Shown here piece after piece: positions 1,229-61,515 of a DNA stretch of 64,000 bases. Location of the stretch: NCBI RefSeq assembly GCF_022965805.1, contig NW_027330871.1, positions 36,001-100,000 of the forward strand. The letters are read 5' to 3'. Under the pieces are notes generated by a model, which was given only the letters and a program-made list of their open reading frames with translations, did no database searches and was not told the DNA's origin. The stretch is from Primulina eburnea. Lineage: Eukaryota; Streptophyta; Magnoliopsida; Lamiales; Gesneriaceae. Position numbers and translations under genes: made by a program. The number at the start of each line of letters is the position of its first letter. Positions within the stretch are counted from its first letter, which is position 1.

Positions 1229-2710
1229 TGTAAGGCTCGAGATTTTAAGTTTTCATTGGCATAAGACTTGGAAGGCATGAGAATGCATGTCATAGGATGA
1301 AAGTAGAAACTATAGCCTGAATTATGGAATTTTGAGTGAGCAAGGCCGAAGTCACACCGCACCCGCGGTACAGGAAGGACTGCACCCGCGGTGCATTGAA
1401 AGAAAATTTGGTGGAATTGTGCGAAGCAAGACCGCACCCGCGGTCCTGCAATGACCGCACCCGCGGTCTGAGGATTCCGGAAAATGGAAAGGCAGCCGAG
1501 AGCATAGCGCACCCGCGGTGCTGCATGCGAAATGCCACCTTCGATTTTTATGTTGACACTTGGCATGGTGTATATATATATTTGTAACATGACTCAGCAT
1601 CTCTATTCAGAAGAACCTAAGAACCGAGAGAATCTCAAGAGAGGAGCAAGCTTCTTCATTTCTTAGGATTTGTATTGTGCAAGATTTACACATCCGTATT
1701 GGAAACTGAGTTGAGATTATTGTTCCCTGCAACAAGAGCTATCTAAGGATGTAAGTATATATCATTTTCCGCATGATTCAGATTGTAGATGTTGGGGAAA
1801 TTATGATTCTGTTGTGAATATGTGTTCTTGATATATAGAGCATCGTATATTCGTTGTCAGATTGATTTTCGGACACAATATGCTATTGTTTCGATTTTCA
1901 GCATGTATTATTGAAGAGTATATCGATTTTCAGAGTTTGAGAAGATTATGTCATTGATATGATGATGTTGATGAGATTATGGTATTGTTATGTGAGTTGT
2001 GAATTGACCGGTACCGAGGATGACGCCGTTATGCCGTCGATTTGTACCGAGATTTATTATTGATTGGAATATGTGTTGCTTTGACGCATAGGAGTAGATT
2101 TGCTCTATGTGTAGACCCTCGATACAGAGTTGACCGAAGTCTAGGAATAAGACATACAGTCGCCCCAAGTGGTTGGGTAGGTGACAGACCGTCTTATTCA
2201 CACCGGGATCCCTAGATTAGAAATGAGTCGAGTCAAGATTTAAATGTTGAATACATATTTGTATTCTTCTACATGTTGTAGATTTTACATTCATGTTACT
2301 TGATATATGCTATGCTTTTGTACATGATTATTATATCGCATGCATCCATGTTTTATACTGGGATATGTTCTCACCGGAGTTATCCAGCTGTTGTCGTGTC
2401 TGTGTGCATGGCAACAGGTGGGGCAGGATCTGGGTCACGAGGAAGATGAGAGATTGTTGATAGCGTGGAGATCTCGGGCGTGCAGCTTACTAGTTGTTGT
2501 ACTATACGTGTACTGAAAACTTTTAAACACTAGTGTATGATTGTACAAAACAGACATATATGTACGTTATGTTATTTATTTACTATAAAGACATGTTATG
2601 TTTTAATTATACATTTGATTTAAGATTAAAAAGCAAAATTTTGACCCACATTTTCGAGCAAAGATCCAATAAATCCCAAAAAAAATTGAGTTAGAGCCCG
2701 GGTCCCCACA
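1229..2710 (+). repeat. Element A 3' LTR with polypurine tract
   Basis: The LTR begins TGTAAGGCTCG directly after a polypurine tract (AGAGGGGGAGAAA, 1216-1228) and ends GGGTCCCCACA at 2710, giving 1.48 kb bounded by TG...CA. The half nearer the 3' end resembles the LTRs of elements C and F (shared TTATACTGGGATAT, CACCGGAGTTATCC and ACAACAGGTGGGACAGGATC-like stretches). The half nearer the 5' end does not resemble F. The 5' LTR lies outside the window, so no target duplication can be tested. Confidence 0.88.
1356..1581 (+). promoter_or_regulatory. GC-rich palindromic motif array plus TATA box in the A LTR
   Basis: Five copies of a motif close to ACCGCACCCGCGGT lie at about 1356, 1379, 1431, 1454 and 1507. 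Each contains the perfect palindrome CCGCGG and two or more CpG sites. About 50 bases downstream is a clear TATA run (TATATATATA, 1571-1580). That places the array in promoter-proximal U3. The motif is seen directly; its regulatory role is inferred from position. Confidence 0.7.
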
Positions 2711-2746
2711 ATTTATATGTATTGTGTGAGCACATTGTAGGAGTAG
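2711..2746 (+). other. Leader remnant of element B, cut by the A insertion
   Basis: This short stretch contains TGTGAGCACATTGTAG just before the B gag ATG. The same words precede the gag ATG of element D at 21838-21853, so this is B's untranslated leader. A's LTR abuts it, so A inserted about 36 bases upstream of B's gag. B's PBS and 5' LTR must lie to the left of the window. Confidence 0.8.
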
Positions 2747-3723
2747 ATGCCTCCTAAGAGAAAGGTTTCAGAAGGTGAGGATAGTTCTTCCTCGAGAGTT
2801 GTCGGCGAGTTCGGCAAGTTACTGAAAGAGCAAGCCAAGTTCCACAGTGAGCAGATTCAATAGTTGCTACGTTTGCAAGGTACATGCCAAGGTAGAGGTC
2901 AAGGGAGAGGTCAAGGGGTTCAAGCAGTTGGGACCGATGGGATTTTTACTGCTTTTAAGAAGATGGATCCACCGGAATTTGCAGGAAGCACCGATCCATT
3001 TGTGGTTGTAGAGTGGATCAAAGCTCTTGAGGCGATTTTCGATCATCTCAACTATGAAGACAAGGACAGAATCAGTTGTGTAGTGTTCATGTTAGTCAAA
3101 GCTGCACGCATTTGGTGGAATGCTACCAAGGTTAGTTTGGATGTTCCGGCATTGAAGTGGCAAGAGTTCACTGATCTTTTTTATGACAAGTACTTCCTAG
3201 ATGCACTTCGAGCTCGGAAGGTGACTGAGTTTTTGGAGCTTCGTCAAGGAGGTAGAATGTTGATGAGTATATTCTGAAGTTCAAGGAGGGCTTTCTGTTT
3301 GCCCCATATATTGCTTCCAACGACAAAGACAAGGGTGCTAACTTCATTATAGGCCTTCGAGCAGAGATCCGGAGGGACATCAACATGTCGAAGGCGGTGA
3401 CATTTAAAAAGATTGTGGCTATGGTTTTGTTGGCCGAGCAAGATGAGAAAGACATTGCCAGAGAGAGACAGGCGAGGCAGCAGGGCATTTCTCAGAGGGG
3501 TCAAGGTTCAAACCAAAGAGGAAAAGGCAATTTCAAAGGGAAAGGCAAGATAGAGTCGAGTCCGAAAGCACCGGCAGTTACATTTGATCCCGAGAAGCCA
3601 TTGTGCCCCAAGTGCAGTAGACATCATCCGGGAGAGTGCAGATTTGGTACTCATACTTGTTATCGATGAGGCACTGCAGGTCATATTGCCAAAGACTGTC
3701 AAAGAGGAGCGAATAAAGAGAAG
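2747..3723 (+). pseudogene. Element B gag (nucleocapsid/capsid), broken
   Basis: The ATG at 2747 starts MPPKRK, as in the intact D gag. The capsid region (ARIWWNATK, EFTDLFYDKYF) and a downstream Cys-rich knuckle (CPKCSRHHPGEC) are recognisable. Lesions seen: TAG at 2861-2863 where D has CAG (Gln); loss of about one base near 3250-3270 relative to D; and TGA at 3667-3669, which replaces the second Cys of the CCHC knuckle (D reads CYRCGTAGHIAKDC). Gag would package the element RNA into cytoplasmic particles. This copy cannot. D is the better representative of the family, about 327 residues. Confidence 0.88.
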
Positions 3724-7204: not shown

Positions 7205-8982
7205 TGTAATAGCCAAGCCTGGTGAACGGTATGGTTTAAGATTTCATATGTTATTGACTATTTGGTTAAGTTGTAGTATAGTTTTGATGTTTAGAGTTGT
7301 GATTTATGGTTTTAGCATGTTGGTTTATAGTTGTTATGTGATGATTTTGTAGCGTCGTTGCGATTTAATTCTTGGTAATTTGTATGTTGAGCCAATTGGT
7401 ATGAGGCCAATTGGGGTGGTTGGATAAGTTATAGATGTGCAACTTCTTTGTTGAGTGTGTTGACGAATTATGAAGAGAAGTGATATTGCGATTCGACTTT
7501 GTTTCGTAGAGTTTATTTTTGGCTACAGAGTAGAGTGCACCCGCACTGAGTAGAGGACCGCATCCGCGGTAGCATGACCGAAGCAAGACCGTACCCGCGG
7601 TCAAGAAGGCACCGCACCCACGGTCTCATGCTTCAGAATTTCGGTTGTTTTCCAGTATCCTCAGCGCTCCCTCGGTGCAAAGTGTAGCGCACCTGCGCTG
7701 TTAGGGCAGAGACCGGAGCGCACCCGTGGTAGTCAATTTAGGATTTTTGGATGAGGTGCCGAGAGTATAGCGCACCCGCAGGTGCAAGGGCTAGCGCACC
7801 CGCGGTCCGTGAACAGTAGAAGCGTGTTTTCAGATTTAAGTGAGATAAATGGATGAGTTGCTCACTTTTCTCTCATTTCTTTCCTATTCTCTAGGTTTCT
7901 TCATACCAAGGAAGATAGGGTTCCTTTTTCCTTTCATTTCCTTCTTTTGATTCTTACATCTTGTTGGTTATTTGTGTTGAGAGCAAGGTTATTTTGGGTT
8001 CAAGGAAGCTAAGGTAAGCTTTTGGTTTAGTTTATACTTAGTTTTGGTGTTGATATAAATCATGGGTTTGGTGATGGTGTTGGTTTTATGGATTAGATGT
8101 TATGGATTTTTTTTATTGAGATGATAATGGTACAATTTATGGTTTATTGTTGTAGGAATTCAACCAAGGGTTTAGATTCAAGGTTCCAAGTGGTTGTAAG
8201 TGGAATTTCATTCCTTGTGCTCACATGATAATATTTGTATTGTATTTCAATGGTTTTAAGATGTATTCCCTTACATTTGATTCATGTTATGTATTATTAC
8301 ACTTTGTTGTATATTAGAGGCATTTTATGTCTCAATTATGTTAAAGAGAATACAAGAGAAAAGAGTCTTCAAAGTGTTTGATGTAATGCCAAAGAGAGAA
8401 TTCAAAATGATTTATTAGATTGATAGATACATAGTCAGAGATTGCATGCAATTAGTTGATCAACGACCATAGGCTTATATCCCTTAGAGTTATCGATGTA
8501 TATCAATGGGATATAGGTACAGATAGAGATACTATATAGATATCAATCCAACAGAGAAAAGAAAAATACCATCTTATTGTTATATTATGCCATGTTATTC
8601 CTGTTTTAAGAGTTGATGGTATTTAATGATTTCAAAACCATGTTTTACAGAGTATGATATATATCCATTGCTATATAAGAGTTCCACTTGCTGAGTTTTA
8701 TACTCATTTCAGTTATTTCATTTGATGCAGATAAGTGCGACGGGCTGGGACGTTGATTGTGGGCCGGAGTCGTATGCATATAGAGAAGGAAGGAAGATGT
8801 TTATTTTGATGGTATTTTGTACATGATCACGAGAATGATATTTTGCATTTTGTTGTATCATTTGATTGATCATGTATATATACTTTTGATTATACATTGA
8901 AATGTATTTTGAATCCTCCTTCCATTTTGAAGAAAATTTTAAATTCCGCTGTTATTTATTAAAACCGGTCAGAGGCATCACA
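7205..8982 (+). repeat. Element B 3' LTR with polypurine tract
   Basis: A polypurine tract (AAGGAGGGGAGA, 7192-7203) precedes TGTAATAGCCAAGCCTGG. The LTR ends GGCATCACA at 8982, giving 1.78 kb. It matches the D LTRs in order and wording throughout (for example the TAGATACATAGTCAGAGATTG, GTTCCACTTGCTGAGTTTTA and GATGCAGATAAG segments), so B and D are one family. No TATA box as clean as in the A or C LTRs was seen. Confidence 0.88.
7535..7807 (+). promoter_or_regulatory. GC-rich palindromic motif array in the B LTR
   Basis: About eight degenerate copies of ACCGCACCCGCGGT or GCGCACCCGCGGT are spaced 15 to 80 bases apart. Many carry single changes (CATCCGCGG, GTACCCGCGG, CACCCACGG, CACCTGCG), several of which are the C-to-T or G-to-A products expected at methylated CpG. 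The position in the LTR corresponds to the arrays in the D LTRs. Function is inferred. Confidence 0.6.
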
Positions 8983-9009: not shown

Positions 9010-10171
9010 TGAAACGTCTGCCCTTTTTATTGCTTTAAAAGTACTAGAAATTATTTTTTTATATATTTCGGCCAACTAACTTAATACCTGAAATTTTTTT
9101 TATAAAATATTTTACCCTTTTATAAAATAAAACCTCAATCAACTAGTATTTAAAAATTCGAGTAAAATAGTCGTAAAGTAAAATCGTCTACTGTTTTACC
9201 AAACCTAAAAAGCAATAATTTGAAAGGCAAAGCCCATGCTAAACCTCTCAAAAATCTTTCAAAAGCATAAATAAATAATCTTAAAAATCTTTAACTTAAA
9301 ACATAAAGCATAAGCGGAAAATGTAGGGCTGGTCCTCGGGTTGTGTGCGCCATCAGTCCAGTCAAATCATCCGTCAAGACCTCCCTCAACCTCACCTGCA
9401 TCCATCACACCTAGTGAGTCTAAAGACTCAACACACCATAATCTTTATCACGAGTAATACGTAATACAGTCAACATATAACGGTGAAAAATACTTGTACT
9501 TAAAATATTGTTTTCATGAAGATGCATAAACTTGAACATAAACATTTTCGTAAAATACTTTTTCATGATGCATAAACTTTAAATAAAAATATCTTCATAA
9601 TGATGCATCAACTTTAAACATAAACATTTTCATGACATGCATAAATAAACCTTAATCTTTTTCCTTTTTCCCTCAACATGACATAAAACCTTTAACATGA
9701 TCATAAACATTTTCCTTTTCCTTTTTCGTTGTTGAATTCAGATCGTTAATTGTGACTTTCCGCAACATGACATGACATGACAATGGATCCATCTACATAA
9801 AACCACAGTACTGGGCGGCGGGGACATCAGCGACACTCTCACCTGTCAACTGAGCCTTGGCCTAACATGATCGAATAGAAATACGATCGTCGGGGCTCCC
9901 TCTGGGACATTTTCCAATAAATGGGCCCCCTCTGGGGCCTTCTCCCCTCACGACATTCCCATTCTTACCTCAAACCTCATAACCTCATATTCGCAATAAT
10001 AGAAACACGATCGTCGGGCTCCCACTGGGACCATAACCCTCACGACGTCGCCATTATTAAAGAATTAGTCACAATCAATTCACTTCGTTCACGTTTTTCA
10101 TTCACATCACTTTATAAAAATCGTGAATAATTTTTACATTTTTCATTTTTGAAACCAAGCATGCAACCTGT
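9010..10171 (-). repeat. Solo LTR S1 (minus strand), 3' part, interrupted by C
   Basis: On the plus strand this starts TGAAACGTCTGCCC, the complement of an LTR end in TTTCA. It contains words shared with the LTR of element E (TAGTGAGTCTAAAGACTCA; ACCACAGTACTGGG). It has no coding potential. It resumes at 18107 after the C insertion and ends TGTAACGCCCC on the minus strand at 20126. The rejoined length is about 3.2 kb. No internal region adjoins either end, which suggests a solo LTR made by LTR-LTR recombination. Confidence 0.65.
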
Positions 10172-10849
10172 TGTGGGGACCTGGACGCTAATCAAGTTCT
10201 TAATCATCATTAGGACTCATTAATCAGTTATAAAACAGGGTCTAAATTTTTTTTTTTAAAATACAAAGCGGAAACGTAATGTAATTAAATCAAATTACAT
10301 ATTAAACATGAACATACAAATCTTGTGTTATCTACAAGAGTTCAACTAGGTCCAACTACATATCAGTGCTGAATCCTATATTGCTTCGAAGCTCGGATCT
10401 CCACGCTATCTAATCTTCTCTCATCCTCTTCTTGACCCTGATTCAGTCCCACCTGTTGTCATGCACACATACAAAACAAGACAACAGCCGGATAACTCCG
10501 GTGAGATATAAATATCCCAGTATAAACAATGTAAACATGCAGTCATATAAAAGCATATACGAAAGCATATAAGAAGTATTCATAACATGTCTTAAATCAG
10601 AAACATAAATTCATATCAAACATTCAATAATCATGAATGGCATAAACAATGTAACTCAACATGTCATATCAGACTCAACTCAACCGACGCGTCGTCTGAG
10701 ACTCGACTCCACTGACGCGTCGTCTCAGACTCGACTCAACACTATCCTAGGGATCCCGATGTCTGGATATAGGTAATTATATCGAATCTCAGTCGATAGG
10801 AATGAATCAATCCCTAAACGGCATCGATATAATTAATATCTCCATTGTC

Positions 10850-11210
10850 TAGGCGAATCAGCCGCAGAATTGACGACTCAGTCAATAACCCGACGAATCA
10901 GCCGGTAATTAGGCGAATCAGCCAACAATCAGACAACTCAGCCTGTAATTAAGCGAATCAGCTTAAGTTTAGACGAATCAGTCAATCACCAGACGAATCA
11001 GCCGGTGACAAGGTGAATCAGCCTATAATGGACGAATCAGACAATAACCCGACGAATCAGCCTGTAATGACTAGGCGAATCAGCCTGTAATGACTAGGCG
11101 AATCAGCCTGTAATGACTAGGCGAATCAGCCTATGACTCAACGACTCAGTAATCAATACATACAGTCAGTATCTAAGCAAATCCGTCCATGACTAGCGAA
11201 TCAGCAGTCA
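10850..11210. repeat. Tandem repeat with about 20- to 23-base period in the C 3' LTR
   Basis: At least 14 units share the core (G/A)(A/G)CGAATCAGCC followed by a variable 8- to 12-base linker (for example GGTAATTA, AACAATCA, TGTAATGACTAG). Three nearly identical 23-base units (core plus TGTAATGACTAG) occur in a row at about 11051-11120. The 5' LTR has only one such unit. The array lies downstream of the TATA box on the minus strand, that is in transcribed R/U5. Confidence 0.85.
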
Positions 11211-11979
11211 TTACATGCAGTAGCTATAAATCAATAGGCTACAAATATCAATCTTATCACACAGTAGCTATAAATCAGTAGACTACAATCATAAGTCTGA
11301 TCAATTGCAAATATCAATGCAATAAGTAAAAGTATGTGATTTAGGGAAACTCGAGTCAAACCTCACTCGAGTTGTGCAATCCCAACTCAACATTAATTTA
11401 TACCTTTCTTTCTGATACTCTGGCTCTGTCGAAGTCTCGAACCCCAAGCATGTCAATACTCAGTCTGACAACAACAATATTGAGGGTATGGTATCAATAC
11501 ACCACTCAATTAATACTGGATACAAACAGAATTCAATCAAATTCTGTTTCAACAACATAACATCATAATCTTAATATATCCAACCCTATCATATCAGTCA
11601 GATATCAATTCTAATATCCCATAATCGATCACCACTCAATCTGGATATCAATTCTTATTCAATCTTATTCTGAAATCATAACAAGTTCATATTCAGTCCG
11701 TTTCTTAATCTGACTTCGATTCTACTCTGTCTAACATGTCAAGAACAACATATATGACGTGTATTCAATTCTAACAACATCATAATTTCAAGACATGTCA
11801 AAACGTAGTAAAACTTACGTCCTTGTGTAGCTCTAGTCGAGAGGAACTCAGAACTGAAGTCGGATTCGAATTTTGCTACACGGTTTCTTCGTAAATTCAG
11901 TTCCAACGCAAAGAGGAAAGTGTCTCTCTCTAAGCTGTCGATTTCCCTTGGAAAACTGAGAGGAAGACACTGATTTCCC

Positions 11980-12270
11980 TTCCTATATATACTACATGCA
12001 TGTACAAAAACGTGGCATAATTTCCGCAGTGCACATCACACCGCGGGTGCGGTCCCTGCAACACCGCGGGTGCGCTTCAGTCTCGGCAATTCTATCTAAA
12101 ATGCACAAGTCATGACCGCGGGTGCGGCTCTTCCAATACCGCGGGTGCGGTCTGGCACCGCGGGTGCGGTGTATGCAAGACCGCAGGTGCGGTCTTGCTT
12201 CGCCCAAAATTCCTACCCTACTGGATTTACACCGCGGGTGCGGTGTAAACAAGGGCGCGGGTGCAGTCTT
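11980..12270 (-). promoter_or_regulatory. GC-rich palindromic motif array plus TATA box in the C 3' LTR
   Basis: Eight copies of ACCGCGGGTGCGGT or close variants occur, the minus-strand equivalent of ACCGCACCCGCGGT, at about 12040, 12063, 12115, 12138, 12157, 12180, 12230 and 12254. A TATATA run lies at 11983-11990, about 50 bases downstream on the minus strand. Geometry matches element A. Confidence 0.72.
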
Positions 12271-12411
12271 GCACGTTCTGAAAAATTATATTTTGCTCCG
12301 AGCAACATCCCATAATCTTATCTGATCAATTCTACAAGTCTTGGGATATTTCAGTGATCTTGTCTGATCAATTCTACGACAATTCTGGGGCATTACATTT
12401 CTCCCCCTCTT

Positions 12412-15912: not shown

Positions 15913-15924
15913 GCTCTGATACCA
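15913..15924 (-). other. Element C primer-binding site (tRNA-iMet)
   Basis: GCTCTGATACCA on the plus strand is TGGTATCAGAGC on the minus strand, complementary to the 3' end of plant initiator tRNA-Met. It lies five bases downstream of the end of the 5' LTR (15930), the normal position for minus-strand priming. Confidence 0.92.
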
Positions 15925-16609
15925 CCTGTTGTGGGGACCCGGACGCTAATCAAGTTCTTAATCATCATTAGGACTCATTAATCAGTTATAAAACAGGGTC
16001 TAAATTTTTTTTTTTAAAATACAAAGCGGAAACGTAATGTAATTAAATCAAATTACATATTAAACATGAACATACAAATCTTGTGTTATCTACAAGAGTT
16101 CAACTAGGTCCAACTACATATCAGTGCTGAATTCCTATATTGCTTCGAAGCCCGGATCTCCACATTATCTAATCTTCTCTCATCCTCTTCTTGACCCTGA
16201 TTCAGTCCCACCTGTTGTCATGCACACATACAAAACAAGACAACAGCCGGATAACTCCGGTGAGATATAAATATCCCAGTATAAACAATGTAAACATGCA
16301 GTCATATAAAGCATATACGAAAGCATATAAGAAGTATTCATAACATGTCTTAAATCAGAAACATAAATTCATATCAAACATTCAATAATCATGAATGGCA
16401 TAAACAATGTAACTCAACATGTCATATCAGACTCAACTCAACCGACGCAGTCGTCTCAGACTCGACTCCACTGACGCGTCGTCTCAGACTCGACTCAACA
16501 CTATCCTAGGGATCCCGATGTCTGGATATAGGTAATTATATCGAATCTCAGTCGATAGGAATGAATCAATCCCTAAACAGCATCGATATAATTAATATCT
16601 CCAGTGTCT

Positions 16610-16870
16610 GGGCGAATCAGCCGCAGAATTGACGACTCAGTCAATAACCCGACGAATCAGCCGGTAATTAGGCGAATCAGCCAACAATCAGACAACTCAG
16701 CCTGTAATTAAGCGAATCAGCTTAAGTTTAGACGAATCAGTCAATCACCAGACGAATCAGCCGGTGACTAGGCGAATCAGCCTATAATGGACGAATCAGA
16801 CAATAACCCGACGAATCAGCCGATGACTAGGCGAATCAGCCTATGACTCAACGACTCAGTAATCAATACA
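16610..16870. repeat. Tandem repeat with about 20-base period in the C 5' LTR
   Basis: Same CGAATCAGCC array as at 10850-11210, but with one unit where the other LTR has three near-identical 23-base units. Confidence 0.85.
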
Positions 16871-17689
16871 TACAGTCAGTATCTAAGCAAAAACGTCAAT
16901 GACTAGCGAATCAGCAGTCATTACATGCAGTAGCTATAAATCAATAGGCTACAAATATCAATCTTATCACACAGTAGCTATAAATCAGTAGACTACAATC
17001 ATAAGTCTGACCAATTGCAAATATCAATGCAATAAGTAAAAGTATGTGATTTAGGGAAACTCGAGTCAAACCTCACTCGAGTTGTGCAATCCCAACACAA
17101 CATTAATTTATACATTTCTTTCTGATACTCTGGCTCTGTCGAAGTCTCGAACCCCAAGCCTATCAATACTCAGTCTGACAACAACAATATTGAGGGTATG
17201 GTATCAATACACCACTCAATTAATACTGGATACAAACAGAATTCAATCAAATTCTGTTTCAACAACATAACATCATAATCTTAATATATCCAGCCATATC
17301 ATATCAGTCAGATATCAATTCTAATATCCCATAATCGATCACCACTCAATCTGGATATCAATTCTTATTCAATCTTATTCTGAAATCATAACAAGTTCAT
17401 ACTCAGTCCGTTTCTTAATCTGACTTCGATTCTACTCTGTCTAACATGTCAAGAACAACATATATGACGTGTATTCAATTCTAACAACATCATAATTTCA
17501 AGACATGTCAAAACGTAGTAAAACTTACGTCCTTGTGTAGCTCTAGTCGAGAGGAACTCAGAACTGAAGTCGGATTCGAATTTTGCTACACGGTTTCTTC
17601 GTAAATTTAGTTCCAACGCAAAGAGGAAAGTGTCTCTCTCTAAGCTGTCGATTTCCCTTGGAAAACTGACAGGAAGACACGATTTCCTG

Positions 17690-17980
17690 TTCCTATATAT
17701 ACTACATACATGTACAAAAACGTGGCATAATTTCCGCAGTGCACATCACACCGCGGGTGCGGTCCCTGCAACACCGCGGGTGCGCTTCAGTCTCGGCAAT
17801 TCTATCTAAAATGCACAAGTCATGACCGCGGGTGCGGCTCTTCCAATACCGCGGGTGCGGTCTGGCACCGCGGGTGCGGTGTATGCAAGACCGCAGGTGC
17901 GGTCTTGCTTCGCCCAAAATTCCTACCCTACTGGACTTACACCGCGGGTGCGGTGTAAACAAGGGCGCGGGTGCAGTCTT
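17690..17980 (-). promoter_or_regulatory. GC-rich palindromic motif array plus TATA box in the C 5' LTR
   Basis: Same eight-copy ACCGCGGGTGCGGT array as in the 3' LTR (about 17750-17980), with a TATATA run at 17693-17700. As the 5' LTR copy, this is the one that would drive the element transcript leftward. Confidence 0.75.
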
Positions 17981-18106
17981 GCACGTTCTGAAAAATTATA
18001 TTTTGCTCCGAGCAACATCCCATAATCTTATCTGATCAATTCTACAAGTCTTGGGATATTTCAGTAATCTTGTCTATCAATTCTACGACAATTCTGGGGC
18101 ATTACA

Positions 18107-20126
18107 CATGTATTTTAAATGTCTTCTTAAATCATAAAAATCCTTTAGACATTTAAAAATCATAATTTAATCATGAACAATTCATAAACATTTAAAAATA
18201 ATCATAATTCCACAAAAAAGCAATTAGGGCACTGTCATGACCTTTAATAATTTCTAGGTGCAAAAAGACCGTTTTACCCCTAGACTCGACATTTTACGAT
18301 TTCGAATTTTTTCGTGATTTCATGACTCTAACATGTCTCAAATAATTATTTAAGCCTACATGAATTTTTCCATAATTTTATTTAGCATAAATATTAGACT
18401 ATTTCATTTATCTTTAAATAATTGTTTTAACGGTGTTTTAATCCAGAAAAATCTCAAACTTTAATATAAAATTCCTAAATTGTAAATTTAGTCTTTTTAT
18501 ATTATTTTAGCCCTTATGGACCACGACTCGACCCCCGTGAGCCGTTTTCTAATTTTTCTTCTTTTAAAAGCCCTATTTGACACCTAAACTTCAACCCCGA
18601 GCCATCTCTTAATTTTCACGAGTTACTCCCGAGCCATGTCGAACCAAAACTTGCCCAACATGCCAAAGTACCCTACTGGACTCTAATTTTACCAAGGCTT
18701 CACTCGAAAACCCGAAAACGTGAACCCTTCCCTCAACCAAGTGCTGGTCGAGGATTGAACTTGCTAGGACTCTACGATTTGGTGCATGTGGCTCTAGCCA
18801 ACGCCCCGACCCTTGAACCACACCCATGACCACTTGATTAGGACCCTAGGGATTCCTTCTAGCCCAGCTCGTGACCCCGAACCAAATCCCTGAACCCTTG
18901 AACACTAGCGTGAACTCTGCACCAAACTGTGCAGTTCTCGGGTAGAGTCCTAGCATGGCTAGGACTCTTCCCCCAGCCCCTAACTCGAGTCCTAGCATGG
19001 CTAGGACTCTCCCCTAGACCCCACCATGACCCTGGCTATCCTCCAGACCGAAGCCAACCCTCGCCCAACCGTGGGGTACCAAACCCGCCGCCCATAATTC
19101 CCAAGACAGCAACTCTCGGTTGTAACTTACGTTGCTTGCCTCCTCTGGTTTTGTGGTGTTTAGGGCGTGCTTGGGTGACTCTAAACCATGTGCACAACAT
19201 ACCTGATCGTGGCCTACATCATGGAATTCCTTAATCATGCATATAACAATTTTCATGCAACAAAACTCATAAAAACGAAGGCTATACATGCTGTAAATTG
19301 AATTTCTGGAAAAAGTTAAGTGCTTCATGCATCCTACAATTTAAATAAATAATATGACATGATGGATGATAAAAGGGAGATTAAGATGTTCCTTTGTGTA
19401 TTATACGCTCGACTAATCGTAGACGACGAAGAACGGAGGAACCCTTTGGCTTGTCTTGCTAATACCTTCGAAAATTCCACAAGAATTCTTCTCTAAATTT
19501 TCTTGTGTGTGCAGCCGTGAGTTGTAGGGAGGGGAGGGAATTTTTTTTCTCAGAAATAAAACTATTTGGTGGCCGATGGTTTTGATAGTAACCTAGGGTT
19601 TTTGATTTAAAATACACATTAAAAATTAATCTAATCACTAAGTAGGCTTTAGGCCTATTAAGCCATAAAATTAAGCCCATTAGTTAAATTAGGATTTAAA
19701 TAAAATAATAGCAAAGTTTTTCTTTAATTAAATATGTGAATTTATAGCCGGGTTGGCAAAAAAAGCTCGTATTTTAGTTGAAAAACCAACACCGATAAAA
19801 TTTACGTCCCGGCGTATAAAATCACCTCAAAACCCCTTTATTTCCAAAAATACTAAAAGCATCGACCATATTAAATAATTAAAAATAATCATTTAATAAA
19901 AACATTTTACATTTTTTTCCGTCCTCGGTCCCTGTTCCTCGATCGTCACTTGAATATTCCTTAAAAATACAATTTTATGCATGATGATAATAAAATCATA
20001 TTTAACATGTAAATATGCACAACATAATTAATTAATACAATTAAAACAAATAATTAAATTACACAAAGAATTTAATAATTGCATGCATGTAGTTCGCGTG
20101 CCCCTTTAAATTTTTGGGGCGTTACA
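18107..20126 (-). repeat. Solo LTR S1 (minus strand), 5' part
   Basis: Continuation of the LTR at 9010-10171 after the C insertion. The minus-strand start TGTAACGCCCCAAAAA is at 20126. The following plus-strand bases AAAT match those left of 9010. The sequence is AT-rich apart from a C-rich stretch at about 18600-19110, where small ORFs occur but look fortuitous. Its wording resembles the S3 pieces at 36074-36433 and 44889-45241. No polypurine tract or PBS adjoins it. Confidence 0.65.
18945..19009. promoter_or_regulatory. Two perfect inverted repeats in the S1 LTR
   Basis: Two copies (18945-18967 and 18987-19009) of a 23-base dyad: the 10-base arm GAGTCCTAGC, a spacer ATG, then the exact complementary arm. 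This is another LTR with repeated dyad-symmetric motifs, but with a different sequence and without CpG in the arms. No TATA box could be placed with confidence. Confidence 0.6.
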
Positions 20127-34935: not shown

Positions 34936-35375
34936 CACTACAAGAAATTTTGATCAATAATGACAAAAAAATAATGAGGGTACACAAAAGTGGTCATTAC
35001 AAGAGTTTTTTTAATAAAAAAAATCCGCATAATTAGCGACGGATTTATCACCGTCGCTATATTTAGCGACGTGTTTATCAAAACGGCGCATCTATAAACG
35101 TAGCGACGGTAAATTAACACCGTCGCAATATAGCGCCGGTTTTTTTTCAAAGCGGTCGCTAATTATAGCGGACGGTTTTTTCAAATCGTGTCACTAAATA
35201 TAGCGACGGTTGACTTTAATCTATCGCAAAATTTAAAATTAGCGACAGTCGAATAATAACCATCGCTAAAATGAGCGACAGCTTTTTTAAATTTGGCGAC
35301 CGTTATTGTGTTCAAACCATGGCTTAGCGACGGTTTTAATCGAAAAAACCGTCGCACCATTTCTAACAATTTCAT
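34936..35375. mobile_element. CACTA-type DNA transposon fragment (non-autonomous)
   Basis: The left end is CACTACAAGAAATTTTG, the typical terminal sequence of plant CACTA (En/Spm) elements. It is followed by about 15 subterminal repeats of TAGCGACGG or its complement CCGTCGCTA, in both orientations, between 35034 and 35360. These are the binding sites expected for a CACTA transposase. No matching TTTCTTGTAGTG right terminus was found, so the other end is lost or degraded. No transposase coding. It sits inside R1. Confidence 0.8.
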
Positions 35376-35671: not shown

Positions 35672-35950
35672 TATATATACCATGCATGCCAAAGACATGT
35701 GGAATCATCCTTCATACTGCACGTCTCGCGTATATGCGCAAGACTCTCTGTCTCGACACTTCTGCGTTTCACCATCTCACGCATATCCAATGCTCGCGCA
35801 TATGCGCGAGACCTACTGTCTCGGCACTTAGGAATTCGAATGCTCGCGCATATGTGTGCCCTCTCCTCGCGCATATGTTTGAGGTCTTCAGCCTCGGCAT
35901 ATGGCAGCTCACACATATGCGTGCCTCATCTCCGCGCATATGCGCTAGAA
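35672..35950 (-). promoter_or_regulatory. GCGCATATGCGC palindrome array plus TATA box in R1
   Basis: Six or seven copies of CGCGCATATGCGCG or near variants (perfect palindrome GCGCATATGCGC at about 35792-35803) lie between 35725 and 35945. A TATATA run lies at 35673-35680, about 45 bases downstream on the minus strand. Geometry is as in A and C, but the motif is unrelated in sequence. Confidence 0.68.
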
Positions 35951-43035: not shown

Positions 43036-44888
43036 TTTAATGCCCGGATTTTGATTCTATTATCTGAGATTATTGATTTTGAATTAATATGATTATAGAT
43101 GGACCATTCCGAGACCAGATTGGGTAAAGCATGTGATTTATGTATATGTGGTACATCACTGTTGGCGCCCGAGCGGTAGAAAAGGGCCGCCCGACCGCCA
43201 ATGCATCACAAGAATTGATTTTGGACAGAACTTTTGGCGCCTGAGCGGTAGTTTTTGACCGCCCAAACACCACTGTTCAATAGAAGTATGTTCGGGCAGA
43301 AGATGTGGCGCGCGGGCGGTAGTTTGTGACCGCCCGAGCGCCAGTGCGTGACAAGAAAATGTTCGAGCAGAACGTGCCACGCCTGAGCGGTAACTTGCAA
43401 CCACCGGAGCGCCGCCTGAAAGTGGTGAAAAATGATGACACGTATCTTTTCAGGCAATTGGATATATATATACAATTTCCTCAGAATTCAGAGAAGAAAT
43501 GAGGAAAGAAGCTCGAGAGAGTTCGCAAACAATCCTTCCGCCTTTATGTTTCAATGCCCCGTCCGTTAGATTTTCAGTCCGACTCCAGTACTAAGTTTCT
43601 ATCGACGCATACTTCAACTGGACGTAAGTTTCATTGATTTCTGTTATATTTTGAAATTGTGGGATTGCCAGAATCGGATATGATTCATATATGATGTTGT
43701 TCACATGTTAGACATTGTATAATCGAAACCGGATTGAGGAACAAATACTGTATAGAATTGTTAAGTATTTCAGAGTTGATTTGACTGGGATATGATATCA
43801 GATTGTATCGTTATTGATTATGAGTTGTTGGAAATAATATCTGTTGATTTGTATTGCTGGGTGTATTGAGATTGTGCAGTTATGCCGTTGAAACAGAATT
43901 CGATTTAGTTCTTGTTATATCCAGTGTCGATTAATTGAGATATTGACATTATATTCCTCGTTATTGTCATTGCCAGATTGAGTATTGACAGATTAGAGTC
44001 CGAGACTTTGACAGTATCAGATTGACAGAAAGAAAGGTATAAATAAATTTTGATCTGGGATTGCACAAATCGAGTTAGATTTGACTGAAATTTTCCAAAA
44101 TCACATACTGAATTATTATTGCATTTGATATTTTCAATGCTTGATATTGATATGCTTACTCTATTGATTTATAGCAAAGCATGAGTTAGAGTTAGGCAGA
44201 CCCGCCTAGTCTTTGGCAGAACCGCCATGGCAGAACCGCCAAGTCACTGGACTTTTGGATATATATCGATAGACTTAGGAGAAGACCGACTCCTACTGCA
44301 GATCTTCGATATAGACAGCCAAGTCTGGAACTAAGAACAAACCACCATCTAGCTGGGGTAAAGTAGATGGGAGAACATTGCGTTCTTATTCAGAACAGGA
44401 TCCCTAGATTAGAGATGAGTCGAGTCCGAGTTGATGAGTCCGAAGTTTATTTATAATTTTATATTGATACATGTTTTTCAGATTTGATACAGGTTATTGA
44501 TATGTGTTTCATGCTTTTATATGACTGCATGTTTACATTGTTTATACTGGGATGTATTTCTCACCGGAGTTATCCGGCTGTTGTCTTTTTTGTATGTGTG
44601 CATGACAACAGGTGGGACAGGATCAGGGTCACGAAGAGAATGAGAGAGCCAAGATTAGCGTGGACATCCGGACTTAGAGTATAGTTATTTTCAGTACTTT
44701 ACGTAGTAGCTTAACTCTTGTTGGAATAAACATATGTTGTACATGATTTGTACTTTATGTTGAATTTTATATCAGATTGATTACTTTACGTTTCCGCATT
44801 GTATTATAAAAAAATAAAAAATTTAGAACCAGATTAATTAAGTGATCCTAATAATGATTAAAAGATGGATTAGGTTCGGGTCCCCACA
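43036..44888 (+). repeat. Element F 3' LTR with polypurine tract
   Basis: Begins TTTAATGCCCGG (TG changed to TT) after ATGGGGGGAGAAA (43023-43035) and ends GGGTCCCCACA at 44888. Confidence 0.87.
43160..43475 (+). promoter_or_regulatory. GGCGCCCGAGCGGT hairpin array plus TATA box in the F 3' LTR
   Basis: Same four hairpin units as in the 5' LTR, with several independent changes in the arms. TATATATATA lies at 43465-43473. One unit reads CCGCCCGACCGCC, so some pairing is lost. Confidence 0.66.
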
Positions 44889-45241: not shown

Positions 45242-47772
45242 TGTGACATTGCATAATTTAAAACTACTTAAAATTTGCGGAAAATAAAAAAAAATATTCT
45301 TAAATAAGTAATAACCTATCAAAAGGAAATACAAGTAAAATTCTTGTCTAAGTATTTGAATTGTAAAAGAGCTTGCAATTGGTACTTTTTTAAACAACAA
45401 AAAGTAATTTCAGAGTAAATGAATTTAACATGCATAAAAATTCTTGAAAATTTTAGCAGTCCTCGGTTTAGGCCTCTACACCGTTTGAGCCAACTCACTG
45501 GTCCCCGTCTCTCGCCTCCTCATAATCGTCCTCATTGAATCGATCAAGTCTAGTGAGTCTAAAGACTCACATGTATAAACTGGGAATAGCGAGTAAAATA
45601 CGTAATAAATTCACAAGCATTTTTAAAGTAGCACATACATACTCAAACTTACATAAACATAGACATGTCATCATTTCATAAAAATATTCAGAAACGTGCT
45701 TGCATCATACATACTTTAACATGCATTATCATCATCATTTTGCGTAGAGATATGTTTCAAAGCAAGTGACCCATAAAACATTGCGCCTGATCAGAGTAAA
45801 CCACAGTACTGGGTTGACAGGGATCATCACAGGCTTTTGACCGAACGTCCACTCCTACATACATAAGATCTCTGGTCATGCTTTACTGGGGTTGAGAGGT
45901 CCCCAGACACGTCTTCGGGCTTCCAAACTCGTTCATAATTGGTCACAAAACAATTCGCATACCTAAAAAACATAGAACATTTTATTTTTGCACGTCGAAC
46001 ATACTTACATAATTTTGAGGGCCTCATTGGTTCTCACTTGGATTACTGTTGCACATACTAAGACATTATTCAAGCAACTTAAATTCCATAACTTAACCGT
46101 ACCAATTGTACTCACCACCGAAGTAATTAAATAACTTACGACTTTCTAGACCACTCGGGACTTGAAAATTTTTAACCATCATACTAGACCATGACATCAA
46201 ACCCCGAAACAATCCTGATATGGAGTATGAACATATCCCAAGTGATTGAAGACACGGACCTTGCTTAAACCATAATGCAACGTTTCTTATCCAAAATTCG
46301 TAACGGCTAATCTAACCCTCACTAAGCTTGGACATAATGACGTATTAATACCCAAACCATGCAATAGCACTTAAACCTACCACTCCTCCATTCCTGGACC
46401 AGAGCCTAGGTGCCTACAGAGTAGCGCTGCAGCGGTGGTAAAGCGCCTAGGCGCTACATCCCAGCGCCGCGGCGCTACCAGACACGAACCTCAGGCACGG
46501 AAGCGCTCCAGATACAGCGCTGCGGCACTAACCCATCGCGCCTGAAACCCAAAAATGGTCATCTTCTACTCATTCGCTTCCTTATGACTTATGTTGTAAC
46601 CAAACCCTTACCGAACCGAACGAAACACCAAAAACGTTTTGTCACAATACACGACATACCTAAATGTAGCAGTGATCAACCGGCGATTCCCAAAAAAGCC
46701 TGCAACCAATAAACCTCAAGAAAACATGAAGAAAATATTTTGATAACCACACATTTTGATCAGTCGCACGAAAATGATCATAATTCACGCGTCTATTTTC
46801 CGAAAATTATGAATTTACTATAAAATCGAAGGTATCGAAAAGTGATATGTTTACTATAAAATCTAAGGTATCGAAAAGTGATATGTTTTAAATGTTGAAA
46901 GTTTTTTCCAAACAACCTACCGAAAATTTTCAGGATGCGAAATGACACCAGATTCTGTTTTAGAGATCTAAAAGTTGTTCTAAAATCATTCCAAACATCA
47001 TTACTCAAACTTTGCATAACATAAACGAATTTTACACACAATATGCATCAAAATATTTACTATGACGAGATCAATGCGGAAAATAAACGATTATACATAA
47101 TGCACGAAGATAACGAATACCAACGCGGTGGATTGCGGGAGATGACCGGGAGACGCTTGCTACACGATTCTTGCTCGAAAAAAGGGCGTAAATCTCCATA
47201 AATTTGCAAGGGTGTGTGTGTGTGTGTGTCGATGGTTGTGTGATTGTGTAACATGTGAGTGTGTGTGAGTGGGGGTAATTAGGGAGTTAATAAAATGCTT
47301 GGTTAATTAATTAGTGATAAAATATTACTAATCTAATTACTAATCCCTCTTAAAGATTTTATAAGAATAGTTAAGTACCAAATTTTTTTAAGAATAAAAA
47401 CTTCAAATGATCAAATTAGTATTTGAAAGTTTAAAATATTAAAATCGCCTAATTAATAAAAAAATTAAGTTTTAAAATGCTAAAATTTTCATAAATCACT
47501 AAAAATATCAATTTTCTTGACTTGAAATAAAATACCACATAAATAAAAAATCGCCTAAATCATCACCGGTCTTTTTTCTCGACCCCGTATCGAATATCCG
47601 TCTGAAACATAAAACTCAAGAAAACGTTTTAACGTGCATAAAATAAATATGTAATAATTCAAAATAAAGCAAATCATAAATCATGCATCATTAAAATAAT
47701 TTTAAAATTGCATAAATAATTAAACAATTTAATAAATGCATTGGTTTACGGGTACTGATTTTGGGTTCTACG
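45242..47772 (-). repeat. Element E 3' LTR (minus strand)
   Basis: It follows the E integrase on the minus strand: TTTCGAGGACGAAATTT, polypurine tract AAGTGTGGGAGGAAA (47773-47787), then CGTAGAACCC (TG changed to CG). The proposed end is GCAATGTCACA at 45242. It shares TCTAGTGAGTCTAAAGACTCA and CACAGTACTGGG with S1. The end does not match the piece adjoining E's PBS at 50503, which is odd for one element. A (GT)n run lies at 47212-47229. Confidence 0.65.
46420..46545 (-). promoter_or_regulatory. AGCGC...GCGCT palindrome cluster in the E LTR
   Basis: Holds the perfect 14-base palindromes AGCGCCTAGGCGCT (about 46442) and AGCGCCGCGGCGCT (about 46463), plus AGCGCTGCAGCGG, AGCGCTCC and AGCGCTGCGGC. 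Another distinct motif with the same dyad, CpG-rich character. No TATA box was placed. Confidence 0.6.
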
Positions 47773-53426: not shown

Positions 53427-54225
53427 TGTACGAATAAATAGCAAACACGATTAAACAATCGCACCCTCTATTTAATTATGATAATAAGACTCGTGTGTTT
53501 TCCCGATCTTTTGAATCAAGTAATTTGATGTGTTATTCACATCTAAACTAGAAAAGTTTAGCAACAAATAAACACGAGAATAACAATCGAAATTTGATAC
53601 GAACCTTTGAAGAACGACGCCTACGACAATCCGCACAAGCACGATCGACAAACGCCACAAAATTATAAACTTTGATAAGTTTGATTTAATTTGACAAAGC
53701 TAAAGCCTTGAAAATTTGAGAGAAAAATCTCAAAAGTTTGAATAAACTCAAAATAATATGTGTATTGTGTGTAAATTTTCGTCCAATATATGTCTTATAT
53801 CAAAAAGATAACAAGGATCTAGTTACCTAACAAAATAAAACTCTAAAGAAGGAAATAATTCGCGCAGACAAACACTAGGCACGGACCCCGTGCAGACCTC
53901 CGTGTCTGGGTCCGTGTATACTCGGTAAATAAACTTCAGTTGTAAACATGGGACACGGATCCCGTGCCCACCTCCGTGTACGGGTCATTGTAGACACTGT
54001 CTTTGCCAATAACATAGGGCACGGACCCCGTGCCAGCATCCGTCTAAAGGTCCTTGTAGGCACTGGTCTCGCGCATCTCAGGATGTAAAGGGCACGGACC
54101 CCGTGTACAGGTCCGTGTACTCTCGGCCGCTTAAAACAAATGCTTGAATGGTATTTCTTCGGCTCCCAAAGCACTCCCATGTCTTCCACACCTTCCTCGG
54201 AGTTTGGCCCACCATGATCGCATCA
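53427..54225 (-). repeat. Element I 3' LTR (minus strand)
   Basis: On the minus strand the LTR starts TGATGCGATCATGG at 54225, after the polypurine tract AAGAAGGGGAGGA. The proposed end is TTATTCGTACA at 53427. Short (0.8 kb), as is usual for CRM/Reina-type elements. Confidence 0.7.
53875..54120 (-). promoter_or_regulatory. CACGGACCCCGTG palindrome array in the I LTR
   Basis: Four units with CACGGA(C/T)CCCGTG at about 53880, 53954, 54020 and 54093, each followed by CC(G)TGT..GGGTCCGTG-type half sites. Dyad-symmetric and CpG-containing, with yet another sequence. A weak TATA-like stretch (ATATAAGACATATATTGG on the minus strand) lies near 53785-53802. Confidence 0.62.
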
Positions 54226-54398: not shown

Positions 54399-55644
54399 TG
54401 TAGTGACCCGTTCCAGAATCACCTACTAATCAGAACTTAAGCATGCAAAATTAACATTTAAAACTGAATCAGGTAAACAGCGGAAAAACAGTAATACAAC
54501 CCAATCGAATCTGAAAGTACAAAATACTTAAACAACCAGATCGAACTAAATACCAAGAACAAATACTAACAACTACAGGTCAACCTCTGCCAGCTCCCTG
54601 TCCACTCCCTCCTGGACCGTCCAACCTGAGACCTGCCCCATCGAATAGGGTGTCCAAAACAGAGATAAACCGAGGACGTGAGCATAAAACGCTCAGCACC
54701 GAAAGCATGAGTATACAAGACTATGACATGCATGTATGCAAAATGTACTGGATACCAGGATCTGGGTATATCGAAATACTGCTCAGGTAAATGACGTCAA
54801 GGTATGTAGCACTCTGCGCCGTCGCACCAGGAGGTGGCTCCCATACCAAAATAAACCTGTGGATATACCGGTGACCTGACCACCGTCGGCCAACGGGGTC
54901 CAACCATCCACAACAAACGAGGGCTGAGCACCCTCTCAACAGGCTATCTCAAAAATAGTCAGGCTCAACATGATTATGCAAATGCCGCATAATAAACCAT
55001 GCATCATATGACAGATAATAATGCAACATATAAACAATGCAACACATAGCAAAGCATACTCAATCCTGCTATCTCGGATAGTACTTTCGTACCTCAAACC
55101 AGTAGATCCTAGCAATCAGTCCTAGAATCAAGTCTGCGTCCGTAGTCAGCCCACTGATGCCGCTAGCTCCCAACTAGAGCACAGCTCCGCTACAAAACCA
55201 GTAGCTCCCCGCTAGTGCCTAAACCTCGGGAAAAGACTAGAAACCCATCAGAAACGACTAAAACGCTCTGGAACACTCGGAATTGGCGAGTAACAAATGA
55301 AGCCTCGCGCCTCTATTTATAGACAACGATCGGACGATCCGATCCACTTCGGACGATCCGATCCACTGTACACTTCGGACCTTCCGAACCCTTATCGGAC
55401 GATCCGAACCCTGCATGTCTTCCACGTGTCCAGACACCTGTCTTCGGACGATCCGAACCCTGATCGGACGATCCGAACTCTGCATGTCTTCCACTGTGTC
55501 CATCCACCTGTCTTCGGACGATCCGAACCCTGATCGGACGATCCGAACCCTCTTCAGACGATCCGAACTCGGTTCGGTCCTTCCGATCTCAACGAAATAT
55601 AATTAATCCAATAATTAACTCAAATTAGGCATTGGGATACTACA
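54399..55644 (-). repeat. Element H 3' LTR
   Basis: Minus strand: TGTAGTATCCC at 55644 to GGGTCACTACA at 54399. Polypurine tract AGGGGGGGAGAA is just outside, at 55645-55656. It is 30 bases longer than the 5' LTR, largely through one extra motif unit in the GGACGATCCGAAC array. Confidence 0.93.
55313..55590 (-). promoter_or_regulatory. TTCGGACGATCCGAAC-type array plus TATA box in the H 3' LTR
   Basis: About ten copies of (C/T)CGGA(C)(G/C)(A/T)TCCGA(A/T)C, many containing the dyad CGGACGATCCG, lie from 55329 to 55590. A textbook TATA box (CTATAAATAG on the minus strand, 55313-55322) lies within 10 bases of the first unit. Two units are separated by a repeated CTGCATGTCTTCCAC stretch. Confidence 0.75.
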
Positions 55645-60283: not shown

Positions 60284-60295
60284 GCTCTGATACCA
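60284..60295 (-). other. Element H primer-binding site (tRNA-iMet)
   Basis: GCTCTGATACCA on the plus strand, TGGTATCAGAGC on the minus strand, five bases from the LTR end (TTTAT spacer). Perfect match. Confidence 0.93.
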
Positions 60296-60299
60296 TAAA

Positions 60300-61515
60300 T
60301 GTAGTGACCCGTTCCAGAATCACCTACTAATCAGAACTTAAGCATGCAAAATTAACATTTAAAACTGAATCAGGTAAACAGCGGAAAAACAGTAATACAA
60401 CCCAATCGAATCTGAAAGTACAAAATACTTAAACAACCAGATCGAACTAAATACCAAGAACAAATACCAACAACTACAGGTCAACCTCTGCCAGCTCCCT
60501 GTCCACTCCCTCCTGGACCGTCCAACCTGAGACCTGCCCCATCGAATAGGGTGTCCAAAACAGAGATAAACCGAGGACGTGAGCATAAAACGCTCAGCAC
60601 CGAAAGCATGAGTATACAAGACTATGACATGCAAAATGTACTGGATACCAGGATCTGGGTATATCGAAATACTGCTCAGGTAAATGACGTCAAGGTATGT
60701 AGCACTCTGCGCCGTCGCACCAGGAGGTGGCTCCCATACCAAAATAAACCTGTGGATATACCGGTGACCTGACCACCGTCGGCCAACGGGGTCCAACCAT
60801 CCACAACAAACGAGGGCTGAGCACCCTCTCAACAGGCTATCTCAAAAATAGTCAGGCTCAACATGATTATGCAAATGCCGCATAATAAACCATGCATCAT
60901 ATGACAGATAATAATGCAACATATAAACATGCAACACATAGCAAAGCATACTCAATCCTGCTATCTCGGATAGTACTTTCGTACCTCAAACCAGTAGATC
61001 CTAGCAATCAGTCCTAGAATCAAGTCTGCGTCCGTAGTCAGCCCACTGATGCCGCTAGCTCCCAACTAGAGCACAGCTCCGCTACAAAACCAGTAGCTCC
61101 ACGCTAGTGCCTAAACCTCGGGAAAAGACTAGAAACCCATCAGAAACGACTAAAACGCTCTGGAACACTCGGAATTGGCGAGTAACAAATGAAGCCTCGC
61201 GCCTCTATTTATAGACAACGATCGGACGATCCGATCCACTTCGGACGATCCGATCCACTGTACACTTCGGACCTTCTGAACCCTTATCGGACGATCCGAA
61301 CCCTGCATGTCTTCCACGTGTCCAGACACCTGTCTTCGGACGATCCGAACTCTGCATGTCTTCCACGTGTCCATCCACTTGTCTTCGGACGATCCGAACC
61401 CTGATCGGACGATCCGAACCCTCTTCAGACGATCCGAACTCGGTTCGGTCCTTCCGATCTCAACGAAATATAATTAATCCAATAATTAACTCAAATTAGG
61501 CATTGGGATACTACA
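60300..61515 (-). repeat. Element H 5' LTR
   Basis: Minus strand TGTAGTATCCC at 61515 to GGGTCACTACA at 60300. Nearly identical to the 3' LTR. Differences seen: a short deletion in GACATGCAAAATG, CCACGC for CCCCGC, one point change in a motif copy, and one fewer motif unit. Confidence 0.93.
61204..61460 (-). promoter_or_regulatory. TTCGGACGATCCGAAC-type array plus TATA box in the H 5' LTR
   Basis: About eight or nine motif copies with the CTATAAATAG TATA box on the minus strand at 61204-61213. This is the copy that would drive leftward transcription of H. Confidence 0.77.

Follow-up and report, generated by a model that had tools for sequence, protein, structure and literature searches.

Why do the long terminal repeats (LTRs) of several retrotransposon families carry arrays of short, GC-rich palindromes close to their promoters? 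The question is raised by 64 kb of the Primulina eburnea genome (assembly GCF_022965805.1, contig NW_027330871.1, positions 36,001 to 100,000 of the forward strand), hereafter the window, in whose coordinates positions are given. The window consists of nested LTR retrotransposons. A first description made from the letters alone, the sequence-only reading, had reported eight motif strings, all of which are present, each at least once without mismatch. It had also proposed a different palindrome per LTR across unrelated families, an idea we abandoned: in the window and in a random sample of the genome, most arrays are built on one inverted-repeat formula with a class-specific 4-bp core, and they lie in related LTR backbones. 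We consider it probable that the arrays are U3 enhancers of Ty3/gypsy LTRs, providing same-face docking for putative dimeric factors and exchanged as cassettes between backbones.

One dyad formula in the window and across the genome

The arrays are real, and chance is excluded as their source. The pattern SCGC-N4-GCGS occurs 54 times in the window, every time inside the arrays of A, B, C, D, S4, R1, F, or E, compared to a mean of 0.72 and a maximum of 3 in 40 local dinucleotide shuffles of the window. The same half-sites with other spacers (0-20 except 4) gave 0-9 matches. The four central bases are class specific: ACCC in A-D, TAGG/CCTA in S4, ATAT in R1, and CCGA/TCGG in F, with mixed cores in E. 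Each LTR holds 4-10 sites (A 5, B 9, C 8, D 8, F 8, S4 4, R1 7, H 9-10, I 4-5), with matches accepted from 11 of 18 bases in R1, 10 of 17 in I, and 11 of 15 in H. The arrays and related features are as follows, with spacings given in bp.

1356..1519, plus strand: array A, 5 sites, core ACCC, spacings 23/52/23/52
1571..1580, plus strand: TATA box of A, 52 bp past the last site
7534..7806, plus strand: array B, 9 sites used, degenerate ACCC class, spacings 23, 24, 31, and 52, without a downstream TATAWA
12040..12267, minus strand: array C1, 8 ACCC sites, TATA at 11991, 49 bp past the last site
17750..17977, minus strand: array C2, 8 ACCC sites, TATA at 17701
18945..19009, no strand assigned: S1, a 23-bp dyad present twice, 42 bp apart, motif without CpG, no LTR established
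20321..20548, plus strand: array D1, ACCC class, without TATAWA
26530..26757, plus strand: array D2, 8 ACCC-class sites, spacings 23/51/22/20/23/52/23, without TATAWA
31005..31112, plus strand: array S4, 4 sites forming two inverted pairs, core TAGG/CCTA, spacings 22/50/22, only CATAAA downstream
35727..35946, minus strand: array R1, 7 sites, core ATAT, TATA at 35679, 48 bp past the last site
36563..36812, plus strand: array F1, 8 sites arranged as 4 pairs, core CCGA/TCGG, spacings 22/49-50, TATA at 36866
43164..43413, plus strand: array F2, 8 sites, TATA at 43463, 50 bp past the last site
46423..46529, plus strand (arbitrary): cluster E, 5 sites (3 exact), mixed cores, spacings 19/21/31/22, LTR membership not established
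53878..54107, minus strand: array I, CACGG-N3-CCGTG, 4 clear sites at intervals of about 66-74 bp, weaker partners displaced by 24 bp
55329..55587, minus strand: array H1, 10 sites TTCGGA-N3-TCCGAA, spacings mainly 20 and 49-50, TATAAATAG at 55321, about 8 bp past the last site
61221..61458, minus strand: array H2, shorter than H1 by one unit, 9 sites, TATA at 61213

E and S1, which had been listed among the mostly CpG-rich dyads of LTRs, are genuine dyads, but no LTR was established around either. S1, whose motif also lacks CpG, was dropped as a class member and is probably unrelated to the arrays. Array I belongs to the LTR of another gypsy element.

We also compared dyad density in the arrays with that in shuffled arrays and in the rest of the window. 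Counting E and S1 as arrays, generic dyads with 5-bp arms number 21.0 per kb in arrays, 5.2 elsewhere in the window, and 3.0 in shuffled arrays, but some 250-bp bins outside the arrays are equally rich (11 dyads at 33751-34000 and 8 each at 33501-33750, 32501-32750, and 35001-35250). What is diagnostic is the repeated motif together with its spacing, not dyad density taken by itself. A motif-blind scan, which looked for GC-rich dyads repeated at least four times, whatever their sequence, and required at least 45% G+C, returned 13 arrays from the window. They are A, B, C1, C2, D1, D2, R1, E, I, H1, and H2, plus an unrelated repeat found twice, in the C LTRs (~11118 and ~16828). The scan missed F and S4, whose units are inverted.

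To sample the genome, we drew 80 places on six large contigs and used the first 4 kb of 40 of them (160 kb). This sample contains 62 SCGC-N4-GCGS sites, in 12 of the 40 stretches, with cores ACCC (27), ATAT (15), CCGA (6), ACAT (4), CCGG (3), and six others once or twice each. Other spacers (0-18 except 4) gave 0-13 matches; spacer 19 gave 31, reflecting halves of neighboring sites 23 bp apart. The turned-round pattern peaked at several spacers, as expected from neighboring sites. In the same stretches the motif-blind scan found 16 GC-rich dyad arrays, compared to 1 and 0 in two shuffles. Thirteen are of kinds seen in the window, including H-type (L055 and L059; loci are cited by L numbers) and I-type (L057, a homolog of array I), and three are of other kinds (L031, L035, and L042). 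Homology to window LTRs extends beyond the array in 12 of the 14 random-sample arrays compared, among them L045, which was found by pattern only; for L044b and L063 the match lies mainly within the array. At least two dyads lie upstream in 11 of the 13 random LTRs with at least 400 bp of upstream sequence. The arrays are genome-wide. Two H-type arrays at L059:780-3530 lie ~2.45 kb apart and are perhaps the LTRs of a short non-autonomous element.

Spacing of the sites and distance to the TATA box

Most distances between site centers measure 19-24 or 49-53 bp, and the main others are 31 and 41-43 bp; 17, 18, 25, 26, 36, 45, 48, 54, 59, 66, 73, and 74 bp were also seen, less commonly. Of the window spacings, 51/59 lie within 10.4n ± 2.6 bp, as do 71/84 in random arrays, a count that omits L031, L035, and L042 (75/94 with them) and the first two L063 values (13 and 10), includes L045, and takes the twin array of L059 once. 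When each spacing was counted once per core class, 35 of 48 fell within these limits (jitter null mean 0.50, P = 0.00125). In 31 ATAT arrays, 170 of the 176 non-independent spacings between 15 and 60 bp did so; two values outside that range (12 and 65) and L071, which is R1 of the window, were left out of this set. The intermediate ATAT gaps were 41-43 bp (26 cases), 31 bp (3), and 36, 38, and 45 bp (1 each), so that one class uses gaps of about 31, 41, or 51 bp. In 30 A-like loci found by search, spacings are mainly 23 and 51-52 bp. A best spacing period of 29 bp was set aside, as it reflects merely the two modes near 22 and 51 bp.

Sites and linkers differ in conservation. Between A, B, C, and D, sites are 86% alike and long linkers 55% (47% when shuffled). 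Within arrays, sites are 88-94% alike in A, C, and D and 77% in B, with long linkers near random or slightly above. Long linkers in A-D measure 37-38 bp and short ones mostly 9 bp (range 5-10). For this comparison and the period test we used one LTR per family (C1, D2, F2, and H1) with hand-picked centers, and overlapping secondary matches were dropped in B, D, S4, R1, and F.

The position of the arrays is also regular. In 12 of 17 arrays (A, C1, C2, R1, F1, F2, and six random ones, with ACCC, ATAT, and CCGA cores), TATAWA follows the last site by 47-54 bp; this set of 17 omits H, I, E, L044b, L055, L056, L057, L059, and L063. Among the A-like loci the distance is 48-54 bp in 29 of 30, compared to a background of 61 of 581 tiles. 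The sequence-only reading had placed the arrays roughly 10 to 60 bases upstream of TATA. That range holds for A, C, R1, and F, at 48-54 bp, and is undercut by H1 and H2, where TATA lies ~8 bp past the last site.

In seven of the gaps between last dyad and TATA (C1, R1, F1, L044a, L045, L048, and L069), we observed CCAC/ACACGT-like words ~25 bp past the last site and CATGC(A) ~38-43 bp past it, directly before TATA. The latter is RY-like, and both words are possible seed or pollen elements.

Array cores and LTR backbones

Self-comparison identified LTR pairs for C (minus), D (plus), F (plus), and H (minus); A, B, S4, and R1 are single LTRs. Pfam matches are of Ty3/gypsy type: SH3_Tf2-1 in A, B, and D; Ty3_capsid in C; and gag, protease, and zinc knuckle in H. 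Integrase zinc-binding is the sole Pfam match of F, whose pol DNA resembles that of the other elements. The gag protein of H shares 96% identity with a P. eburnea protein across 70% of its length. R1, S4, and E lack coding sequence of their own. The LTR backbones are homologous within two groups, A/C/F/R1 and B/D/S4.

1229..2711, plus strand: 3' LTR of A, TGTA start following a purine-rich tract, homology to the F and C LTRs in the downstream part, end approximate
10171..12397, minus strand: 3' LTR of C, 96% pair with 15924-18106, ends approximate
about 15929..18106, minus strand: 5' LTR of C, partner of the 3' LTR, ends approximate
20155..21722, plus strand: 5' LTR of D, lacking the first ~46 bp, 97.5% pair with 26364-27930
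26318..27930, plus strand: 3' LTR of D, partner of the 5' LTR
~30620-31916, plus strand: LTR backbone of S4, homologous to the B/D LTRs
~36073, minus strand: LTR start of R1
36436-38257 and 43038-44888, plus strand: LTR pair of F, 91.5%
54399-55644 and 60300-61515, minus strand: LTRs of H, paired by self-comparison

To compare cores with backbones, we built a tree from up to 600 bp of the R/U5 region of 11 LTRs, with R1 placed on 37% of columns. The core classes are scattered on this tree. L034, an ATAT array, groups with L044 and L048, both ACCC, with support of 100/100, and a single clade was rejected for ATAT (AU p 4e-35) and for ACCC (AU p 6e-66). Linkers tend to follow the cores. In 11 of the 15 long-linker arrays (B, D, S4, and L063 omitted, as was one linker each of L034 and L069), the mean best-linker z was 4.2 within core classes (17 pairs) and 1.8 between them (38 pairs). 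The linkers of L034 scored 3.4-4.0 with other ATAT arrays and 0.7 and 0.4 with its backbone sisters.

Some linker words are common to many arrays (TTTTGG in 8 of 15, CCGAGA in 6, and CAGTAG in 6, compared to a shuffled maximum of 5; L063 was probably counted in the wrong orientation). These words first suggested concerted replacement of cores within one conserved array skeleton. Since linkers tend to go with cores rather than with backbones, cassette exchange is the simpler reading, and we set concerted replacement aside as less likely. The arrays seem to move as blocks between LTR backbones, presumably by template switching, and the skeleton on which they move may be distantly shared. The common, diversifying, promoter-proximal module proposed by the sequence-only reading is supported, being genome-wide, fixed in position in TATA-bearing LTRs, and equipped with cores that do not follow backbones.

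The window holds further features. The C LTRs carry a second tandem repeat downstream of the array (10894-11132 and 16631-16859), with a 20/60 bp unit CGAATCAGCC.. and the dyad TAGGCGAATCAGCCTA. Element I appears to have been split by the insertion of H, with a gag-like ORF to the right of H (61491-63801) and the I array to its left (~54200). A copia fragment lies at 28056-29210. A search of viral contigs with the integrase part of D and a protein search with the ORF spanning the R1 array each gave no match.

Alternative explanations, precedents, and implications

In the explanation we favor, each array would act as a U3 enhancer of its Ty3/gypsy LTR and activate transcription. Each dyad would be a site for a putative protein dimer, with inverted CpG half-sites at a fixed spacer (SCGC-N4-GCGS in most classes). 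With sites 2, 3, 4, or 5 helical turns apart, the dimers would line up along the same DNA face, and where an LTR has a TATA box this strip ends ~50 bp ahead of it. The factor or paralog would be selected by the core class (ACCC, ATAT, CCGA, TAGG, H type, or I type). Recombination, possibly through template switching, would exchange whole cassettes between LTR backbones, so that cassettes would change faster than the rest of the LTR.

Several observations weigh against this explanation. H (TTCGGA-N3-TCCGAA) and I (CACGG-N3-CCGTG) lie outside the SCGC-N4-GCGS formula, and two of the 13 random LTRs, both in L052, have no dyads. Spacings within an array and among related copies, the 176 ATAT values included, are not independent. 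B contains two 17-bp linkers, and the retention of linker length is only moderately unusual, as 38-52% of 38-bp windows elsewhere keep their length within 1 bp at similar divergence. No TATAWA was found downstream in 5 of the 17 arrays (B, D1, D2, S4, and L054), and a strict TATAWA is present in only 2 of 6 sense-oriented ATAT loci (L073-L078; L071 and L072 are antisense). Core labels are still partly clustered on the tree, with 4 changes compared to a shuffled mean of 5.6 and 15 of 200 shuffles as low. Some linkers match across classes: those of L034 with F2 (z 5.3) and C (3.7), and those of L041 with its sister F2 (3.5). The folding of the arrays, double changes in ATAT and H sites, and array divergence in D and F, described below, count on the same side.

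The strongest rival, which we nevertheless consider unlikely, is that the dyads act as RNA (or extruded DNA) hairpins in the transcript 3' end, read by host silencing or protecting the RNA, a role already proposed for the palindromes of maize Sireviruses. All 11 arrays that we folded exceeded dinucleotide shuffles in stability (z -1.56 to -7.70), as palindromes must be, and the paired units of F and S4 give long stems. Small-RNA hotspots at maize Sirevirus palindromes, reported in the accessible parts of PMC5311732 and PMC10760457, fit this idea. In the best-sampled class, ACCC, double changes numbered 2, 13, 4, and 0 at pairs 1, 2, 3, and 5, compared to 3.2, 14.3, 5.3, and 0.5 expected, and exceeded expectation only at pair 4 (5 versus 2.6); the two half-sites change about independently. 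Small excesses occurred at the outer pair of ATAT sites (10 versus 5.9, with 8 still paired) and at H pairs 2 (3 versus 0.9) and 3 (4 versus 2.3). These counts take both strands, so that a site can count twice, and include some stray matches. None of the F sites shows full symmetry across its four half-site pairs, and neither helical-turn spacing nor a constant TATA distance has an evident role in RNA. A selected stem inside each dyad is therefore disfavored and nothing stronger, and because ACCC halves show no paired change beyond expectation save at pair 4, F sites fall short of full symmetry, and helical spacing has no evident meaning in RNA, binding to double-stranded DNA is favored. Among the functions that the sequence-only reading had offered, the factor-binding module fits best, and the selected hairpin fares worse.

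Neutral tandem growth is a more remote prospect. Under this rival, a ~72-bp two-dyad unit was duplicated, and spacing and similarity reflect descent and conversion without function. The units are indeed regular (22+50 bp), and H1 and H2 (55325-55600 and 61215-61471) belong to the same insertion, whose LTRs show just 4 substitutions but one dyad unit of difference (21 gap columns in the array), which indicates that array copy number changes fast. In D and F, LTR partners also diverge more within the arrays than elsewhere in the LTR (D 12/246 versus 26/1321, Fisher p = 0.012; F 26/256 versus 98/1564, p = 0.031); C, with fewer differences in the array (1/241 versus 32/1935), and H (2/255 versus 2/961) gave no significant contrast. 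Neutral growth does not readily account for sites that stay alike while long linkers drift to near random, for the similar geometry of unlike dyads (H, R1, and F), for a TATA distance that is constant across cores, or for intermediate gaps ~10 bp apart.

Least probable is a methylation or anti-silencing platform, in which a methyl-sensitive factor or a VANC-like anti-silencing protein would recognize the CpG-rich palindromes: CpG is denser in arrays than in the rest of the LTR (8.7-11.8 versus 1.3-4.5 per 100 bp; observed/expected 0.89-1.60 versus 0.55-0.94, R1 excepted at 1.38 versus 1.51), and VANC targets are fast-diverging, family-specific tandem motif arrays in the available portion of PMC5735166, but no extra element-encoded protein is seen in H, where two gag-pol ORFs fill 4356 of 4655 internal bp, and CpG transitions between partners are not clearly rarer in arrays (array versus rest: C 0/50 versus 4/128, D 4/66 versus 3/44, F 8/67 versus 12/94, H 1/56 versus 0/70).

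Which host factors might read the dyads as U3 enhancer sites? The CAMTA or CGCG-box motif, [ACG]CGCG[CGT], occurs 2-14 times per array, counting both strands, in A, B, C1, D2, S4, R1, F2, and E and is absent from H1 and I. Several other plant factor cores are absent or rare in the arrays. LBD/AS2 proteins, whose target core is GCGGCG according to the sections consulted of PMC10118128 and PMC8755679, were rejected as candidates: this core is absent from A, B, C1, D2, S4, R1, H1, and I and occurs once in F2 and twice in E.

Tandem activator boxes upstream of TATA, with a repeat unit of ~72-75 bp, are familiar from the U3 boxes of Tnt1 and the U3 enhancer repeats of retroviruses, and these modules vary among subfamilies. 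We know of no common dyad formula with exchangeable cores in them. The sequence-only reading did not recognize a precedent for the palindrome arrays, and here it overlooked one. Sireviruses, which are Ty1/copia elements, carry CpG-rich palindromic repeated motifs (RM) upstream of TATA, termed Sirevirus-specific and absent from the "classic" elements in the accessible text of their description (Bousios et al., 2010, PMC2829016). As in Sireviruses, the dyad-symmetric motif here is repeated in the upper half of the LTR, judging from LTR coordinates for A, C, D, F, and H. The hosts here are Ty3/gypsy rather than Ty1/copia, and the main Primulina signature is SCGC-N4-GCGS rather than the CGG-CCG given for RM in those excerpts. 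CGG-CCG is found here in H (TCGGA..TCCGA) and I (CACGG..CCGTG), is reversed in the ACCC class (CCG..CGG), and is absent from the ATAT class. According to the same excerpts, RM number at least 8 per element, compared to 4-10 sites per LTR here, and have TATA shortly downstream; here it follows at 47-54 bp in 12 of 17 arrays examined, at ~8 bp in H1/H2, and not at all in B, D1, D2, S4, and L054. A spacing grammar, a fixed site-TATA distance, and cassette exchange are not described for RM in these excerpts.

In maize, Sirevirus palindromes lie in a fast-evolving, palindrome-rich LTR promoter region, and cis-regulatory regions of transposable elements are in general often repeat arrays, sometimes palindromic (available portions of PMC5311732 and PMC10760457 for the former, PMC10760457 for the latter); the helical spacing found here differs in arguing for a role at the DNA level. 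VANDAL elements resemble ours in that their non-coding arrays consist of short motifs specific to each family, with rapid divergence even among related elements (PMC5735166 and PMC10398659, in the parts available) but are DNA transposons with their own VANC protein and a non-dyad motif, YAGTATTAC/T. Among the openly licensed papers listed in our searches, we found no report of such arrays in gypsy LTRs and no plant paper with any of four motif strings. The closest precedent is the Sirevirus RM; the Ty3/gypsy hosts, the different formula, the spacing grammar, and the apparent cassette exchange are new here.

A promoter architecture termed Sirevirus-specific by its describers, at least in the accessible text, is here extended to gypsy elements in a different plant and given a testable grammar of formula, helical spacing, and fixed TATA distance. 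Our results also indicate that cores move between LTR backbones. Extrapolating roughly from 62 sites in 160 kb on six contigs, the genome would hold hundreds of thousands of sites, which could matter for nearby genes. A broader reading, possible although we would not yet call it probable, is that gypsy LTRs run on a shared modular promoter code: fixed outer halves, an exchangeable core, one DNA face, 2-5 turns between sites, and ~50 bp to TATA, with cores swapped as cassettes between families under selection, changing the host factor or silencing involved. If so, elements could switch the host factor to which they respond, or the silencing that reads them, and leave the remainder of the LTR unaltered. 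Should the dyads prove to bind host dimers, the grammar would predict which distances and cores work, and swapping would offer a concrete handle on how retrotransposons alter their regulation in the contest with host silencing.

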